A stretch of DNA of 52,466 nt, from positions 1 through 52,466 of IMG/VR virus record IMGVR_UViG_3300037042_001548, one strand, 5' to 3'. Positions 34,994 through 45,559 of this stretch are shown piece by piece. Position numbers and translations under genes: made by a program. The notes beneath the pieces were generated by a model. That model was not told the origin of the DNA, ran no database searches, and saw only the letters and a program-made list of their open reading frames with translations. The DNA comes from a virus. Numbering within the stretch: the stretch's first letter is position 1; every line of letters begins with the position of its first letter.

Positions 34994-35063
34994 TTTGCGT
35001 TCCTTTCAAAGATCAGGTTGGTTGTTACAGCAATCTGAAGTGTGTTGCTGTGAAAGCATTATA
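34994..35063 (-). promoter_or_regulatory. Promoter-leader cassette D for the DUF932 gene
   Basis: On the minus strand: -10 TATAAT at 35063-35058 (context GGCGTATAATGC), a 7-bp hairpin ACAGCAA/TTGCTGT (35051-35045 with 35033-35027), then the variant element CCTGATCTTTGAAAGGAA at 35017-35000, with GAAAGGA as ribosome binding site. The region has no good -35. Confidence 0.65.
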
Positions 35064-35081
35064 CGCCGCATTCTCGTGAGT

Positions 35082-35224
35082 TGTACACAGGCTTGCGAAA
35101 ATTTTACAATTCTGTACTTGCGTTTTAAGAATTGGGTTACAGGCTCACGAAACTGTACACTTTCGTTTCTCAAGACTTGAGCACCACAACTTTTTGCCTT
35201 GGCTCCATAGGCTGTGGATGTACA
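35082..35224. promoter_or_regulatory. Repeats between the divergent promoters (candidate operators)
   Basis: The 360-base gene-free region 34994-35353 contains, besides two promoters, a direct repeat ACAGGCTTGCGAAA (35087-35100) and ACAGGCTCACGAAA (35139-35152); TGTACA palindromes at 35082-35087, 35154-35159 and 35219-35224 (the last overlaps the rightward -10); TGTACT at 35113; and the palindrome CTCAAGACTTGAG (35169-35181). These look like protein-binding sites of a control region or origin. Binding is inferred. Confidence 0.5.
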
Positions 35225-35353
35225 ATGAATGACGGCCCGGTCTGGGCCGCAACACTTTGACCGTTGAAAGAAAAAAGGCTTGGAGCTGTTTGAGCAACTC
35301 CAAGCCTTTGAAATCATGGCAACTGCGATTAACCATGTAAGGAGACCATCGGC
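35221..35353 (+). promoter_or_regulatory. Rightward promoter E and structured leader of the primase-helicase
   Basis: -10-like TACAAT at 35221-35226 (context GATGTACAATG); hairpin CGGCCC/GGGCCG at 35233-35249; element TTTGACCGTTGAAAG at 35256-35270, a variant of the leftward elements; a 12-bp perfect hairpin at 35274-35309; Shine-Dalgarno AAGGAG at 35339-35344. The order box-hairpin-element is the same as on the minus strand. Confidence 0.55.
35271..35309 (-). terminator. Intrinsic terminator reading leftward
   Basis: On the minus strand a 12-bp perfect stem (AAAGGCTTGGAG/CTCCAAGCCTTT, 12-base loop) is followed by a run of six T, one C and three T. On the plus strand there is no T-run, so it is directional. 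No leftward gene starts to its right before 35400, which suggests it ends a short non-coding transcript. Confidence 0.65.
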
Positions 35354-35388
35354 ATGTCAACCGGCTTTGCAGCGCAGACAACACAACC
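35271..35388 (-). ncRNA. Candidate antisense RNA to the primase-helicase start (about 118 nt)
   Basis: A -10 box TATAAT (context TTGGTATAATGTTG) lies at 35400-35395 on the minus strand, with the same GTATAATG core as other promoters of this phage. A transcript starting about 7 bases later would cover the start codon and Shine-Dalgarno of the primase-helicase and end at the intrinsic terminator. The loop of the paired sense and antisense hairpins contains YUNR-type U-turn tetrads (sense UUUG, antisense CUCA), a feature of natural antisense control RNAs. No coherent protein is encoded. Not proven by data. Confidence 0.45.
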
Positions 35389-37438
35389 AGCAACATTATA
35401 CCAAGACTTCTTAGCGGCACGGGGGTTCACCCCGGCGGACACTGCAGCGCTTGGCTTGGAGCTTCTTGACCCACAGGAGACTTACAATCTACTGGGCCAC
35501 ACCCGTGAGTGGAGCATCAAGCTCCCCTACTTCGACATCCAGGGGCAGGAAACCGGCTTTACACGTGTAAGGCTTCTTATGCCTAAGAGCAAGATGAAGT
35601 ACTCCCAGGCACGGGCCTCGGGGTCCCACATCTATTTCCCCCCAACCGTGGGGTGGAAGCAAGTCTGCCAGGACGTGGATGTGCCGCTCATCATCACGGA
35701 AGGTGAGTTCAAGACCTGGGCGTTGACCAGGAAGATTGCCGCTGACCAGCTACCCTATGCAGCTTTAGGCTTGGCAGGGGTTACGAGTTGGACGGACCGT
35801 ACGGGCTTGCATCTCCATAAGGATCTGATGCAGATCTATTGGAAGCGTAAGACAAGCTTCCAGGAGAAGCACCGCAAGGTCTACATTGTCTTCGACTACG
35901 ACGGGGCGGAGGATGACGGGGAGCCTAACGAGCAGGTGGGGATGGCAGAAACCAGGCTTGCAGTCACGCTCCGCGGCCTAGGGGCTGAGGTCTATCTCTG
36001 CCGAGTCGGGAAATTTGCGTCAGGCAAAGGCTCCAAGTACGCCATAGATGACCATTTGCTTGCCGGCGGCGACTTGGGGCAGGTACTCTCCGCCACATCC
36101 ACGGTGATGAACGGCATCGATACCTTGGAAACCAAGCTTTATGAGTTCAAGACGCAGTACGCCTTATACAATGGGGACGTAATCCGCTTGCGGGATGGCC
36201 TCATTTTGCCTTGGTCAAAGGCAAAGATTGACTCGGCGCAGCATTACTTCATCCAGATCACGCAAAAGCAGAACGGCCAAACCAGTAGTCGTGAGATTGC
36301 GCTGATTGATGAGTATAAAAAGTGGCCTCGGTGCTGCAAGCTGGAGCACATCGGCATGTATCCCGAGCACCAAGGGATGCCTATCACACCCGATAAGTGT
36401 TACAACCTCTTCAAACCGTGGACGCATGAGCCAATGGCCGGCGATCCAGGACCGTACCTGGACTTTTGCAAGTACTTTTTTCAGGCCGAGCCGCACTTTG
36501 AGGAGTACTGGCACGATTGGGTGGCCAATGTCATCCAACAGCCGTGGCGAAGAAACAATACCACGCCGCAGTTCATCCACGACATGGAAGGTATGGGCAA
36601 GTCCGCAATCCCCGAGTTCATAGCCGAGATGCTAGGCTATGGGGATGGGTCACCGGCGGCTACGTTAGGGCCAGATGATCTATTTGGCAACTTCAACGGC
36701 TTGATGAAGGGCAAGGTCTTTGTGGTGGTGAATGAGCCTTCATCCGATCGCGATGACCATAGCGCAAAGCTAAAGAATCTGATCACCGGCAAGGAAATCA
36801 CGATCAACAACAAGTATGGCGCGCAATACACCCTACGCAACTACGTCAACTACGTCTTTACCAGCAATAAGCCCTACATCACCCACATGGGGGAAAGCTC
36901 TCGGCGCGAAGCTATCTACAAGTGCCCAACTTTTAACCAACTGGACATCCTAACTAGAGTGGGGACCATGATGCGGTGGGCCAGGGCTAACAATGGCGCG
37001 GGCTTTTCAGCGGTACTTAATTGGTACATGAACCGCGACATTCACGACTACGATCCCTACGCTCCAGCTCCCAAAACCAAGTACAAAGACATTGCCATTG
37101 CGCTAAGCAAGACGCCAATGGAAAGCTTTGCCGTTGAGCTCACGAGCTGGGTTACCGAGCACCTTGAAGGTGTGGCTGCTTTCACCGCGGCGCAGCTTGC
37201 TGTTCTATGCGAGCGTTGGGGCCACGACATACGCCCTAAGGCCCAATACATCAAAAAAGCGCTACAGGCACATGGGGACTTGGAGCCTAATAAGGTCATC
37301 AAACTGGGCGGAAAGACACATCGATTCACGTTCTTTGTGGTTACAAATTCGGTGCACAAAAACCGTAACCATGGCGATCTCACGACTGTTGCAAAGAACA
37401 CTGAGGATGCGATTAAACGTGAGATTGAGCAAATTTGA
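35354..37438 (+). CDS. Replicative primase-helicase (TOPRIM/DUF3854 plus SF3-type ATPase), 694 aa
   Basis: N-terminal TOPRIM-type domain: LIITEGEFKTWAL with Glu116 and Glu118, VYIVFDYDG with Asp181 and Asp183, and a later AIDDHL. C-terminal helicase domain: a Walker A-like DMEGMGKSAIPEF near residues 411-423, then KVFVVVNEPSSDRDD as Walker B, and YVFTSNKPY as sensor/motif C of SF3 helicases. A primer-making and unwinding enzyme for the phage replisome. AAGGAG 9 bases upstream supports the ATG. It is the only replication gene on the plus strand, separated from the leftward replication genes by the divergent region, and is expected to control the start of replication. Confidence 0.85.
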   Translation: MSTGFAAQTTQPATLYQDFLAARGFTPADTAALGLELLDPQETYNLLGHTREWSIKLPYFDIQGQETGFTRVRLLMPKSKMKYSQARASGSHIYFPPTVGWKQVCQDVDVPLIITEGEFKTWALTRKIAADQLPYAALGLAGVTSWTDRTGLHLHKDLMQIYWKRKTSFQEKHRKVYIVFDYDGAEDDGEPNEQVGMAETRLAVTLRGLGAEVYLCRVGKFASGKGSKYAIDDHLLAGGDLGQVLSATSTVMNGIDTLETKLYEFKTQYALYNGDVIRLRDGLILPWSKAKIDSAQHYFIQITQKQNGQTSSREIALIDEYKKWPRCCKLEHIGMYPEHQGMPITPDKCYNLFKPWTHEPMAGDPGPYLDFCKYFFQAEPHFEEYWHDWVANVIQQPWRRNNTTPQFIHDMEGMGKSAIPEFIAEMLGYGDGSPAATLGPDDLFGNFNGLMKGKVFVVVNEPSSDRDDHSAKLKNLITGKEITINNKYGAQYTLRNYVNYVFTSNKPYITHMGESSRREAIYKCPTFNQLDILTRVGTMMRWARANNGAGFSAVLNWYMNRDIHDYDPYAPAPKTKYKDIAIALSKTPMESFAVELTSWVTEHLEGVAAFTAAQLAVLCERWGHDIRPKAQYIKKALQAHGDLEPNKVIKLGGKTHRFTFFVVTNSVHKNRNHGDLTTVAKNTEDAIKREIEQI

Positions 37439-39545: not shown

Positions 39546-39598
39546 AGCCGTATAATGCGTAGGCAATCTCGCGCTTGCGAGACTTAAGAGGGTCAAGC
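39546..39598 (+). promoter_or_regulatory. Promoter-leader cassette F of the polyvalent gene
   Basis: -10 TATAAT at 39551-39556 (context GCCGTATAATGCG), a 6-bp hairpin TCTCGC/GCGAGA at 39567-39582, and AGAGGG as ribosome binding site at 39587-39592. The box begins five bases after the terL stop. Same box-hairpin order as the leftward cassettes, but without the TTTGAC element. Confidence 0.6.
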
Positions 39599-42500
39599 AT
39601 GCCTCCTGAGAATTTAGTTGATTACACCGCAAGCCCTGAAGAGCCAAGTCTCGATGCGATGCGATACGCGCTAACCCAGCGCAACGCCACACCCAATCAG
39701 CAACAACGTCCATTGGACGGCATTACTGACACCTTCAAGCGGTTGGCAGCGGAGTTCAACCCGTTGATGATGGGTCGCACTCTGCAGGACGCGCCTAAGG
39801 TTATGTACAACGCCGTTGCCGCGCCGGTTGCAGGCACTTGGGCAGGCGCATTGCGTAACGTACAAGCCGCGGGCGCAGCTCAAGCTTACGGTGCGCTGGG
39901 TATGCCGCAGGAAGCTGCAGCAGCGCAAAGCCGCGTGCAACCCGTAAAGCCGCAAGACGCGCAGCTGCAATTGCGCTCAAACGCAGGACAGCAAACGCAA
40001 CAAGCGCTGGGCGAGGCGTTTAACGCCTTGCAGTTGCCGCCTGTAGGCCCAGGCTCGGGCATGCCAGGCTCCGCGCCTGTGAGCCCAAGGCCTATACTCA
40101 CACCAAATGATGTCCGCGTCATGGGAGCAAGGGCTACGCACGCTGTGCGCGAAGCCGGGCAGATCCCAACTGACATTGCCAATGTGCGTAATGCAGGCAT
40201 TCAGCGAATGAGCCCGTTGACGGGGCAGCCTTCGGTGGGTAGCCGAATGGGTACCGCAATTGAAGGCACGTCGCAGGCTGCCGGGCGCGTAGGCGATGTG
40301 GCTCGTGATGTAGGGCAATCCACGGCTGACTACATGCAAATGCGGCGTGATATGGGCTTAAGCCCCGTGCCAGGTGTGCCGCCTGAGTTCTTCCCTGATT
40401 TGCGCATGTACGCAATGCGGCCTAAAGACTCAACGCTTGTTACGCCGTCGGTGCCGCCTACAAAAGATGTGACCGCGTTGGATATAGGCACCGCGCCGCA
40501 GACCGCAATTCATGACATAGGTGCGCATAAACCTGAGTTGCGCACGTCAGACGCGTTGGCATATCTGGCAGGCATGGACTTGGACATCCCACGCACTGAC
40601 GCACAAGGCATTGCGACTATCACAAGCGAGCGGCAAGCTGCGTTTAATGCATTCATAGCGGCACAAGCGAACGCGCTATACCCTGACGCACCCAATTCTC
40701 GCGAGGCCGTACTTGCAATGGATGACCGCTTTTCGCGGCAAGCTGATAAGGACGCAGCTCGTATAAAGCTATACGATGAGTTTCGTGAATCGCCGGAAGG
40801 CCAAGCCGTTGACATGGGCGACTTGCCGTCGTCAACGGAGTTGCAAGAGCGCCACGTTGCGGCGTCGCAATGGCTTAACTCTACGCTTTTGAATTACGCC
40901 AAGCGTAAGTTCGGCGCCGAAGGCGACCCCTTGGTGCAACAGGCATCGCAAGGGTTCACCATGCTGCCGGCCGAGGACGTGCGCCGCATGTCAGAAAGCG
41001 TCAATGAGGACGTCTTAAAGCGACGCAGAGCTCAGGCAGGCATGCCTGTTGCAGGCACCCTTGCACCGGCCATTCGAGATAAGTCAGTTGAGCTGGCTGA
41101 CGCCACTGCAGCGGTGGAGCAGCTGCAACAACGCCGTGAAGAGTATCGCAACGTTGCAATGCAGCAAGGTTTGCCTGATCCGGCGCAATTGCCTGAGTAC
41201 GCCGCAACTACAAACCCGTTGAGCGCGGCTGTTGCTAAACGCGATAAGCTGCAAGATGAATTAAGCAATCTGCAACTTGGTCGTGATTACGAAAAGCTAT
41301 CAGACATCGCCGTAGCGGTTGACACGCAACCTAATTTACTAGGCAAAATTGAGTATCCGCAGCAGCAGTTTTACCCGTCGGTTACGCGTGCACGACCTGA
41401 TGAGACGCTATTTCACGTTTCTAGAAATAATGCTCTGCAAAGCACAGGCTTCAATGAATTGGCAGCGCAGTTTTATGACGACGTAATTCGTGGCAATATT
41501 CCAATTGACAAGTTGAAGGGCTTAACCGTTGAGAAGTACGTGCGTGGTAAATCTGAAAGCCGAGTTGCTGAGGAAAAGCGCCAAGTACAAGCAACGGCGG
41601 CGCTAAAAACCAATATCGAATCGCGAATGCAGGAGGACATGGCGCTATACGTCAAGCCTGAGAATTACTTTGGCAACGTTGGCGTCTTGGAGCTTAGCAC
41701 AAGCACGGGCTTTCACATTGACGAAATTCGCAGGTTGATCAGCGATGACACATTGGTGCTGGATCACTGCGTTGCTGAAGGCCCCACGCCTGGTAGTAAG
41801 GCAAAGAACCTTTGGAACGGCAGGGAGCGTAGGTATATGCCGTTGGTTGACCCTGCAACAGGTCAATTGCTACCTAACTCATCGCGTACGTATACGCGGT
41901 ACATTCGCGAGGCTGGCGACCCAGACGCAAATCAGGCAGGTATGTTGGCCAGTGTCCGTGATAAAGCCACAGGCTTGCCTGTCGCAACCATTGAGTTTGC
42001 GCACGCCTCAAATGGCAAGTACCGTATTGGTTACGCATCAGGCTATCAAAACGGCCACGTTAAAAAGGCGTACCATGATGCCATCAAGGAGTACTTGAAT
42101 TCTCGTGCCGACGTAATTAACGGTAGTGGTGGTGATCTTCCAAATGTGGGGCTTATTGATCTGCATAGCACAGAGGCAGTTGGTGAACTGCAACGCATAC
42201 TGGGCGTGCCTCGGCGCGATGCTGAGGCATTGCTAGATGACGCACTCACAAATGGCGGATTACCGCGGTTTGGTACAAGCGACGATCTGCGGCAAATTTT
42301 TGCAAAGCCACAACCTGCGCCTGTAGCTCAGCAGCATGCCGCGCGGCAACCTAACACGCAGCAACCTGTAACGGTTACTGCATTAAACGATTTCGTGGCT
42401 TTTATGCGGCGAGAAGTAGGCGTTGACGCAGCTGCCACAATTTCACATATACTACAAGAAGCACGACAAAGCTTTCCTGGCGCGCCTGATTACATGGTGC

Positions 42501-45500
42501 TATTGAGTGAGCAGCCTACAGCGTTTGCAGAGCGCATTGCTGAGCTTGCGCAGGAACAAGGTAATGCGCTTGTTGCGCAATTTGGAACTGCTTTTGCCAA
42601 TCGCATTGCGCCGCCTGTAGCGCAACAGCCTGCCGCTGCGCAACCTGCGGCTCGGCAACCTGCCGCGCAGCAAACCGTAACGGCCAATGATCTGTACAAT
42701 TACTTACGAGATGTTGCGCAAGCTTACGGCCGTGACGAAGGCGACGCAATGATGCATGTAGTAAGGCAAGTGCGACAATCATTTGGTGGCGCACCATATG
42801 AAGATCTACTGCGTGAGCATCCTACCGCGTTTGCAGAGCGCATTGCAGAGTTTGCGCAGGAACAAGGCAACGCAATTGTTGAGCAAGAATTGCTGGCTTT
42901 GGCTGATCGCATCGCCCCGCCTGTGCCACCTGCAGCGCAGCTAAACCCCCTAGCCGCTTGGCCTCTTGCGCAACCCGAAGCGCAACAGCCTGCAGTACAA
43001 GGCCGAGGCGCAGGCACTGTGTTGATACCAAGGACACGATTGGCAATTGACGACGCATTTGAGCTTGCTGAGCGTGGCTTACAAGGTGATGATGAGGCCA
43101 CACGTAGGTTTGCGGCTTTTGAAAGTGACGTGCGCAATGCGTATTTGCAGCCTAACGCGACAATGAATGACCTACGTTTATTGCGTCAGCGCATGGCTAA
43201 TGCTATCGACTTTTATGAGCGTGTCAGTGTCAACCCGGTACAGGAAGTTGCTGACGTAATACGTAATGATTTGCTGCCTGCGATAGACGCCTTGATTGCG
43301 CCGCCTGTAGCTCAGCAACCTGCAGCGCCGCAGCAGCCCGCGCTTGGCTTGTTTGAAGAATTTGCCATAGCGCGAGATTTGCTTGAAAACGCGCGTCTTG
43401 ATAACCAAACGTTTGACACGGGCGATTTAGGCACTACGCTGTTTGTACTTGAGAATGGCAACTTTGATGACCCGCGATTTAGAGCTTTAGGCCCACAAAG
43501 CGCGGCGGCACAGCGTGAAGTTGCAGCGGCACTTCGTCAGATGATGCAAGAAGCAGGCATACTAACGCCTGGTTCTCAGCAGATTGCCTACCCAGGCCCG
43601 CCTGTTGACAATCAACCTACGCCTCAGCAGCAAGCTATCATCAACGACATTCGTGCGGCTGATTTAGCCGACATTGTCAACTTTATCGAACCTAATAGAT
43701 GGCCTTTGATTACTGCGCGTGCAGATCGCGCGGCAGCAGGGGTATTGGACAATTGGCCGGCTGATTGGCAGGATGTACACTTAGCAGACGCAGCCCAAAC
43801 GACTGAAGCCATTCGCAATGGGCAAATGCCTGACATTACAGATGGGCTTGATGTTATTGAGCGAGAACTTGTTGCTCGTGAAGTGCAGCAACGCATTGAT
43901 GACCTCGCGGGTAGACAAAGACCTATTGCAGCGCAACCCGCTGCTCAGCAATTTGACAACACGCCTTTTGACGACGCGCTGATAAGCTTTGACGCGGGGT
44001 TGACAGACATTGCCATGGACGTTGGCTGGCCTGGAGCCATCGCTGAGATTGACCGTATACTGGACGACTTAGCGCATGGTGCAGGTTCTATTTATGGGTT
44101 GTGGGAAGGCGATGAGCCACTTACTGATCGCACGCGTGAGTACTTGGCAACGCGGCTTCGCGAGCTTCGTCAAGAATACGAGATACGTGCGGCGGACGCG
44201 GAAAGGGAGGCAGATTTAGGCGATTGGGAGCCGGACGACGACCATCCTGCTAACCGCCCAACGCGACAGCGCCCATTTCCACCTGGTGGCGCAGCAGCTA
44301 CACGCGGTGTGCCTTTTGGCAATTTGAATATTCAACCCGCCACAACTGCTGCAATGCTTAGAGGCGCAGACACGCAGCCATTACGTAACTTTATTCAGCA
44401 ATTTCGCGCATTGCCTGGCGTAACTCGTGAAGGCGCGCAAACGGCATTGCTAGGTCTTGAGCGCATGGACCCTACACGGCGTGTGACCAAAGCTGAGTTT
44501 ATTCGCGAGTTGGTGCCGTCAAACTATGACGTCGTTGATTTGAAAGGCACTGCTACACGCGATGAGCACTTGTGGCAAACCCTTGATGATGAGCTTGAGT
44601 ACGCAGAAGTAGGTGAGCATTTTGCAAGCTTACATGGGCTTAGCCCTTCAAGGTATGGCGCAATGCTAGGCGAAAACGTGTATGATGACTTGTCTGCAAG
44701 CGTAAAGCGTTTACTTGCCAGCAAAGGCATAACTGATGAGATTGAGTTTGATAGCGCAATGCTTAAAGCGCGAGAAGAGTTGCTGCAAGAACAATACACT
44801 GATGCTAGAGAATACGTTGCCGATATGGGCGGAGGTGGTGATCTTGAAGGTTACGCGTATTCAGACACACAACGATTGATTAGTGATGACTCACATGGCG
44901 TATACGGCGAATTTGGTGTTACGCACCCTGAGCAGCAAGGTACGTACACACACTATGATGCCGCGCCTGAGGGCATGATAGGTCATTTTCGTGGAACGTC
45001 AGTTAGCGCTACGCCGCTTGTAATCAACGTGCATACTGGCTCAAGCGCGCGTACTAAGTTTAAGACAAAGCCTAATAGCTACGTCATCGAAGAAATACAA
45101 TCTGACGCACAAAAAGGCGCGTCACAAACTGCGCAGTTGCATCAGGTGCACGGCCTTATTTTTAAGGCGGCAGTCCAAAAAGCATTGGAGTCAGGCGCAA
45201 CAACAGTGTATATGCCTACTGCAGCTGTCATTGCTAAAGCACGAGGTGAGAATGCTACAAGTTTTGCGCCTATTTACGATCAAGCTGTTGTCAAAGAAGG
45301 TCTTAAGCCACTGCTTAAGCTTCAGGGTGTGTCATCAACAATGGTTAATGGCTACCATGAAATTAGCTTTACGCCTGAGGCAATAGAGCACATTTTGCGT
45401 GGGCCAGGGCAAACTATTCCAGGCTACAATGCGGGTGGCGCTGTACGCAAGTCAGCGTATGACAGCACTTTTGCGCTGAAATACGCAAATGGTGGTACAG

Positions 45501-45559
45501 TACCACAAACTCAAAGCTTGGATGCTATGAAATACGAACTTATGATGCGGAGTAAATGA
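39599..45559 (+). CDS. Giant polyvalent (LPD-type) phage protein, 1986 aa
   Basis: The motif PSLDAMRYALTQRN at residues 16-29 is mirrored by QSLDAMKYELMMRSK at the C-terminus (1972-1986). Residues about 680-900 contain a PcfJ/LPD-like segment (LISDDTLVLDHCVAEG, RRYMPLVDPATGQLLP, YTRYIREAGD). Two tandem units of about 100 residues follow (from about 923 and 1024; shared HPTAFAERIAEFAQEQGNA-type core). Near the end is the conserved signature of large polyvalent proteins: GMIGHFRGTS, then EEIQSD at 1831-1836. It ends with two NAGG/ANGG motifs. Such proteins are carried in the virion or injected and counter host defences; here this is inferred. The ATG has AGAGGG upstream; an in-frame TTG at 39575 is inside the leader. 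Confidence 0.75.
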   Translation: MPPENLVDYTASPEEPSLDAMRYALTQRNATPNQQQRPLDGITDTFKRLAAEFNPLMMGRTLQDAPKVMYNAVAAPVAGTWAGALRNVQAAGAAQAYGALGMPQEAAAAQSRVQPVKPQDAQLQLRSNAGQQTQQALGEAFNALQLPPVGPGSGMPGSAPVSPRPILTPNDVRVMGARATHAVREAGQIPTDIANVRNAGIQRMSPLTGQPSVGSRMGTAIEGTSQAAGRVGDVARDVGQSTADYMQMRRDMGLSPVPGVPPEFFPDLRMYAMRPKDSTLVTPSVPPTKDVTALDIGTAPQTAIHDIGAHKPELRTSDALAYLAGMDLDIPRTDAQGIATITSERQAAFNAFIAAQANALYPDAPNSREAVLAMDDRFSRQADKDAARIKLYDEFRESPEGQAVDMGDLPSSTELQERHVAASQWLNSTLLNYAKRKFGAEGDPLVQQASQGFTMLPAEDVRRMSESVNEDVLKRRRAQAGMPVAGTLAPAIRDKSVELADATAAVEQLQQRREEYRNVAMQQGLPDPAQLPEYAATTNPLSAAVAKRDKLQDELSNLQLGRDYEKLSDIAVAVDTQPNLLGKIEYPQQQFYPSVTRARPDETLFHVSRNNALQSTGFNELAAQFYDDVIRGNIPIDKLKGLTVEKYVRGKSESRVAEEKRQVQATAALKTNIESRMQEDMALYVKPENYFGNVGVLELSTSTGFHIDEIRRLISDDTLVLDHCVAEGPTPGSKAKNLWNGRERRYMPLVDPATGQLLPNSSRTYTRYIREAGDPDANQAGMLASVRDKATGLPVATIEFAHASNGKYRIGYASGYQNGHVKKAYHDAIKEYLNSRADVINGSGGDLPNVGLIDLHSTEAVGELQRILGVPRRDAEALLDDALTNGGLPRFGTSDDLRQIFAKPQPAPVAQQHAARQPNTQQPVTVTALNDFVAFMRREVGVDAAATISHILQEARQSFPGAPDYMVLLSEQPTAFAERIAELAQEQGNALVAQFGTAFANRIAPPVAQQPAAAQPAARQPAAQQTVTANDLYNYLRDVAQAYGRDEGDAMMHVVRQVRQSFGGAPYEDLLREHPTAFAERIAEFAQEQGNAIVEQELLALADRIAPPVPPAAQLNPLAAWPLAQPEAQQPAVQGRGAGTVLIPRTRLAIDDAFELAERGLQGDDEATRRFAAFESDVRNAYLQPNATMNDLRLLRQRMANAIDFYERVSVNPVQEVADVIRNDLLPAIDALIAPPVAQQPAAPQQPALGLFEEFAIARDLLENARLDNQTFDTGDLGTTLFVLENGNFDDPRFRALGPQSAAAQREVAAALRQMMQEAGILTPGSQQIAYPGPPVDNQPTPQQQAIINDIRAADLADIVNFIEPNRWPLITARADRAAAGVLDNWPADWQDVHLADAAQTTEAIRNGQMPDITDGLDVIERELVAREVQQRIDDLAGRQRPIAAQPAAQQFDNTPFDDALISFDAGLTDIAMDVGWPGAIAEIDRILDDLAHGAGSIYGLWEGDEPLTDRTREYLATRLRELRQEYEIRAADAEREADLGDWEPDDDHPANRPTRQRPFPPGGAAATRGVPFGNLNIQPATTAAMLRGADTQPLRNFIQQFRALPGVTREGAQTALLGLERMDPTRRVTKAEFIRELVPSNYDVVDLKGTATRDEHLWQTLDDELEYAEVGEHFASLHGLSPSRYGAMLGENVYDDLSASVKRLLASKGITDEIEFDSAMLKAREELLQEQYTDAREYVADMGGGGDLEGYAYSDTQRLISDDSHGVYGEFGVTHPEQQGTYTHYDAAPEGMIGHFRGTSVSATPLVINVHTGSSARTKFKTKPNSYVIEEIQSDAQKGASQTAQLHQVHGLIFKAAVQKALESGATTVYMPTAAVIAKARGENATSFAPIYDQAVVKEGLKPLLKLQGVSSTMVNGYHEISFTPEAIEHILRGPGQTIPGYNAGGAVRKSAYDSTFALKYANGGTVPQTQSLDAMKYELMMRSK

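Follow-up and report, generated by a model that had tools for sequence, protein, structure and literature searches.

What lies opposite the start of a phage replication gene? This question is raised by a viral stretch from IMG/VR (record IMGVR_UViG_3300037042_001548, positions 1 to 52,466; these 52,466 nt are called the window here), in which a primase-helicase gene starts with an ATG at 35354. An initial annotation of the letters alone had proposed that a leftward RNA, read from a minus-strand TATAAT, lies antisense to the Shine-Dalgarno sequence (SD) and AUG of this gene and ends at a hairpin with a T-run. Relatives were taken from viral contigs by primase homology, and the comparison argues strongly for the proposal, both through constraint on the -10 hexamer and through the recurrence of the terminator; a conserved antisense-RNA gene over the primase-helicase start is very probably real.

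The proposed -10 is present as described, as a perfect TATAAT hexamer on the minus strand at 35400-35395. On the plus strand it reads ATTATA, has the coding pattern xxA-TTA-TAy, and lies 41 bases into the gene in all loci examined bar two, L165 and L167. On a codon-constraint tree of 60 non-redundant relatives of the primase-helicase, the Leu15 codon is TTA in 58/59 relatives, with just one synonymous change by parsimony (the TTG of L165) as compared with 11-29 in the 26 other conserved leucine columns; the share of TTA among the leucine codons of these primase genes is 5-20%. Codon 14 undergoes 10 amino-acid changes on the tree and its third base, A, changes once, which is the lowest value among 323 variable columns. 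Leucine codon 20, nearby, varies freely (CTA, TTA or other), so the constraint on the hexamer is not explained by a general bias towards codons ending in A at the beginning of the gene. Judged from the codon comparison, this constraint is selection on DNA and not on protein.

The hairpin and T-run, which the initial annotation placed at 35309-35271, are also found in the window, with 15-nt arms (35309-35295 and 35288-35274), a folding energy of -23.9 kcal/mol, and TTTCTTTC following on the minus strand. We surveyed the 150 bases upstream of the gene in 32 representatives, using a cut-off of ≤-13 kcal/mol and shuffled controls, and found leftward terminators in 30/32 representatives versus 8/128 shuffles; rightward terminators occur in 5/32. 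The stem sequences differ widely among lineages, and polarity and position are constant. The only two representatives that fail this test are L165 and L167, the same two loci that lack the -10; a hairpin that persisted without a conserved -10 would have spoken against the antisense proposal, and instead the two elements are conserved together and jointly absent. Seven loci (L194, L200, L202, L205, L208, L211, and L212) have an upstream gene that is co-directional (rightward) with the primase, so that, apart from the antisense RNA, no transcript is apparent that the leftward terminator could serve at these loci. Essentially all relatives, down to ~50% protein identity, carry both elements, and a pattern scan at the right spacing found 58 contigs, versus 7 at a wrong spacing (5 N) that served as the chance control. 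The scan added lineages that are ~50% identical, L230/L248 and L260/L264, with both elements present, and inspection by eye of the hits outside primase genes revealed no such arrangement. It is because the TATAAT and the terminator both recur in relatives that they carry weight, and not from the window alone.

The RNA predicted from these elements (Table 1) spans the SD at 35339-35345, the ATG and 11-12 codons, and equivalent RNAs of 95-171 nt are predicted in 38 relatives; complementarity to the 5′ untranslated region (UTR) and translation start follows from position in all loci carrying both elements. Conservation of G at the predicted start site is mostly expected anyway from Pro12 (CCN). 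The predicted RNAs have a common layout: a first stem-loop (SL1), formed by codons 1-12, is followed by a linker that faces the SD and by the terminator (SL3), with an additional stem-loop (SL2) before the terminator in some. The RNAalifold consensus of SL1 alone is weak (-0.54 kcal/mol), and we therefore used strand asymmetry and slid controls to assess it. In the SL1 register (39 gapless sequences), 83.2% of cells are paired on the minus strand, versus 31-54% when the register is slid and 53.0% on the plus strand; SL1 has 218 G-U pairs on the minus strand and 14 on the plus, and the terminator has 29 and 9, respectively. The anti-SD segment has a mean unpaired probability of 0.68 (33 loci) versus 0.39 for whole RNAs. 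The stem of SL2 becomes TATGG/CCATA or ATAGC/GCTAT in relatives, and CAACTGC is present in 21/67 related upstream regions while the flanking stems change; in the window, GGCAACTGC is found at 35318-35326, in the 5′ UTR and within the SL2 loop. By sequence comparison, then, the -10, the terminator, and a 5′ stem-loop that favours the minus strand are maintained, with the presence of the -10 and the terminator linked.

Table 1. Predicted elements at the primase-helicase start and in the neighbouring intergenic region (window coordinates)
Feature	Position	Strand	Basis
Primase-helicase gene, the target (DUF3854 + DUF5906; PHROG 1156 DNA primase)	35354..37438	+	Domain and PHROG matches
Shine-Dalgarno AAGGAGA of the primase-helicase gene, inside the antisense RNA span	35339..35345	+	Sequence
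Extended -10 box TGGTATAAT of the putative antisense promoter, within codons 14-17 of the primase-helicase gene	35395..35403	-	Sequence; synonymous constraint in relatives
Predicted transcription start, GG, 7-8 nt past the -10	35387..35388	-	G in 29/30 and 30/30 lineages
Predicted antisense RNA, ~121 nt	35268..35388	-	Span from -10 to terminator; -44.7 kcal/mol, z = -4.1 versus shuffles
SL1, 5′ stem-loop over the start codon and codons 1-12	35350..35388	-	Pairing, slid controls, plus-strand comparison
Linker predicted to be unpaired (UCUCCUU), complementary to the SD	35339..35346	-	Unpaired probability 0.89
SL2, optional small stem-loop (CATGG/CCATG) with GCAGTTG in its loop	35315..35337	-	Folding; stem varies in relatives
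SL3, leftward intrinsic terminator with U-tail	35264..35309	-	Folding; position conserved, stem sequence varied, 30/32 representatives
Additional leftward site resembling a promoter (TGTACA-18-TATAAT), downstream of the terminator	35058..35087	-	Consensus scan only

Several observations weigh against an antisense RNA gene at this position. The -35 box is weak or absent across the family; in the window there is no -35 match at normal spacing from the TATAAT at 35400-35395, and TTGnC with a spacing of 19 bases is seen in some lineages. The TGn extension of the -10 occurs in some lineages, including that of the window, where TGGTATAAT is the sole TGnTATAAT, and it is not universal; an extended -10 was rejected as a universal family feature because it is not conserved. 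The A/C-rich sense start favours minus-strand G-U pairs anyway, which partly explains the strand asymmetry, and synonymous randomisation of SL1 points in the same direction only moderately (mean z of -0.8 on the minus strand and +0.56 on the plus strand). The SL1 region of L206, L213, and L214 folds on the plus strand too, and some lineages have only a weak SD-like motif or none. Finally, the lack of both -10 and terminator in L165 (2495) and L167 (1706) indicates that the element is not essential to every member.

Taking these points together with the comparative evidence, we regard a conserved antisense RNA gene that represses the primase-helicase from its start as the best explanation overall and a probable one, with repression of primase-helicase translation as its likeliest function. 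A chance -10 accompanied by a hairpin that stabilises the leader of the sense mRNA would be compatible with the hexamer itself, as a window this large should contain TATAAT by chance and the 7 copies present, versus ~10 expected, do not place a single hexamer above chance; however, the tree-wide synonymous constraint on the hexamer, the polarity of the terminator, and the joint absence of the two elements leave this already disfavoured reading with next to no credibility. In another reading the transcript primes or activates replication of the phage DNA from an origin within the divergent intergenic region; in its favour are the location at a divergent point, where GC skew turns (near 33-35 kb), and the repeated ACAGGCTNNCGAAA elements. 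The skew tracks gene strand as well, though, and several lineages with a co-directional upstream gene have no divergent region and yet keep the unit, so that we consider a priming role very unlikely.

In two further readings a leftward transcript is made and has another role. If transcription matters rather than the RNA, with the leftward promoter acting by interference or as an insulator, then a promoter and a terminator alone would suffice, and no other parts are conserved as strictly as the -10 and terminator; SL1 pairing, which favours the minus strand, is unneeded for interference, and we judge this reading improbable. We have similar doubts that the RNA targets mRNAs of the host or other phage transcripts in trans, with its overlap with the primase a mere matter of location. 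The RNA is structured and the loop motif GCAGUUG recurs in part of the family (21/67), but the motif is absent from most loci and the position over the SD and AUG is invariant in the family, making trans action unlikely. Although GGCAACTGC with ≤1 mismatch occurs 44 times in the window versus 28 expected, these matches are dispersed and do not single out a clear group of targets, and it was rejected as a trans seed on these grounds.

For an antisense RNA gene that represses the primase-helicase, we propose that a leftward sigma-70-type promoter, with its -10 inside codons 14-16, drives an RNA of 95-171 nt (~121 nt in the window) that would start with SL1, expose the anti-SD linker, and end in the 5′ UTR at an intrinsic terminator of its own. 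Once transcribed, the RNA would pair with the primase-helicase leader starting at the exposed linker, and this pairing would either block ribosome loading or promote RNase III decay. Every phage genome copy would also make the antisense RNA, which could thus provide a dose-dependent brake on primase-helicase synthesis. We speculate that the brake might work throughout the family as a plasmid-style copy-number sensor, in which RNA dose tracks genome copies, shuts off primase-helicase synthesis, and sets when replication stops during lytic growth, although we hold this extension only tentatively and would sooner expect it to be wrong than right.

Antisense control of replication-protein synthesis through the leader RNA is exemplified by CopA/CopT of plasmid R1, where CopA relies on kissing between loops that involves a YUNR U-turn. 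The initial annotation drew on this precedent, and the terminator loop of the window does have YUNR tetrads on both strands; among related loops, however, they are present in only 9/29 on the minus strand and 8/29 on the plus strand, with ~4 expected by chance. Because the motif is not conserved, the kissing-loop argument fails, and the resemblance to CopA/CopT lies in an antisense RNA that would act on the leader of a replication gene. Plasmid pMV158 encodes RNAII, a small antisense RNA that ends in a hairpin and a U-rich stretch and inhibits repB translation; its pairing begins in single-stranded regions, a precedent for pairing from such segments rather than from kissing loops (PMC4485353). 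The phage RNA would likewise be small and antisense to a replication gene, with a hairpin and a U-rich stretch at its 3′ end; it would differ in its length (~100-170 nt), its structured 5′ stem-loop, a -10 in the target coding sequence, and in being phage-borne.

The Bacillus subtilis RNA ArrA runs antisense across the dnaA 5′ UTR from a perfect TATAAT and reduces target mRNA and protein, and mutation of its -10 raised both (PMC12112137). The two share a perfect TATAAT antisense promoter over the leader of a replication gene, but ArrA is chromosomal, has a promoter that overlaps DnaA binding sites and includes a recognisable -35, and had terminators added for its in vitro template (PMC12112137), whereas the phage RNA is predicted to be short, with its own conserved terminator and a -10 within the coding sequence. 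Features of the pMV158 RNAII and ArrA kind that are found here at the sequence level are an opposite-strand promoter, full complementarity to the 5′ UTR and translation start, and a predicted discrete short RNA with a 3′ terminator. Lambda OOP, which had been suggested as a distant parallel, is a loose one only: it too is a short RNA that a phage makes from a promoter-terminator unit of its own (pO-oop-to), and it lowers expression of the overlapping gene, but that gene is cII, cleavage occurs just past the cII end, and the phage is temperate (PMC5869508). OOP thus acts on cII near its 3′ end and not at a replication-gene start; overlap with cII and decay of its mRNA are lacking at our locus, where the target is the 5′ end of the primase-helicase gene.

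Cis-antisense RNAs were also found by RNA-seq in the virulent phage PAK_P3, mostly in the structural region, in a study noting how few descriptions of antisense RNAs in phages there had been, and whose main text does not mention 'primase' (PMC4933390). No Rfam 15 family matches at its gathering score, the best minus-strand hit reaching 14.2 bits versus 35.7 needed. Plasmids and B. subtilis dnaA already provide examples of antisense control of a replication-gene start; the open literature searched, of which our coverage was incomplete, yielded no antisense RNA that covers the start of a primase-helicase gene in a phage.

A DNA similarity search of phage records with the primase-start region gave no match, and a protein search found that the closest primases in phage records are only ~25% identical. 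L135 and L136, the two loci with such ~25%-identical primases that we examined by eye, have neither the antisense -10 nor the terminator, and no relatives were found in the bacterial genomes searched. The antisense unit appears, from the relatives recovered, to belong to a family of uncultivated viruses of bacteria.

Downstream of the terminator, in the divergent intergenic region, the TGTACA-18-TATAAT site is the best consensus match within 33-38 kb, and it probably serves the DUF932 gene or operon. Beside TGTACA sites there is a direct repeat, ACAGGCTTGCGAAA / ACAGGCTCACGAAA (35087-35100 and 35139-35152), whose copies are possible operators or origin elements. Elsewhere in the window, a 1994-amino-acid open reading frame (39575-45559) that follows the large terminase gene has no PHROG or Pfam match.

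The two members that lack both elements, L165 and L167, offer a natural comparison useful for studying function, and the codon analysis suggests that an RNA gene concealed in a coding start can be detected by codon constraint alone. If the antisense RNA acts as proposed, the unit would offer an antisense regulator that is ready to use and tunable, and phages of this family would also meter a replication enzyme by RNA.
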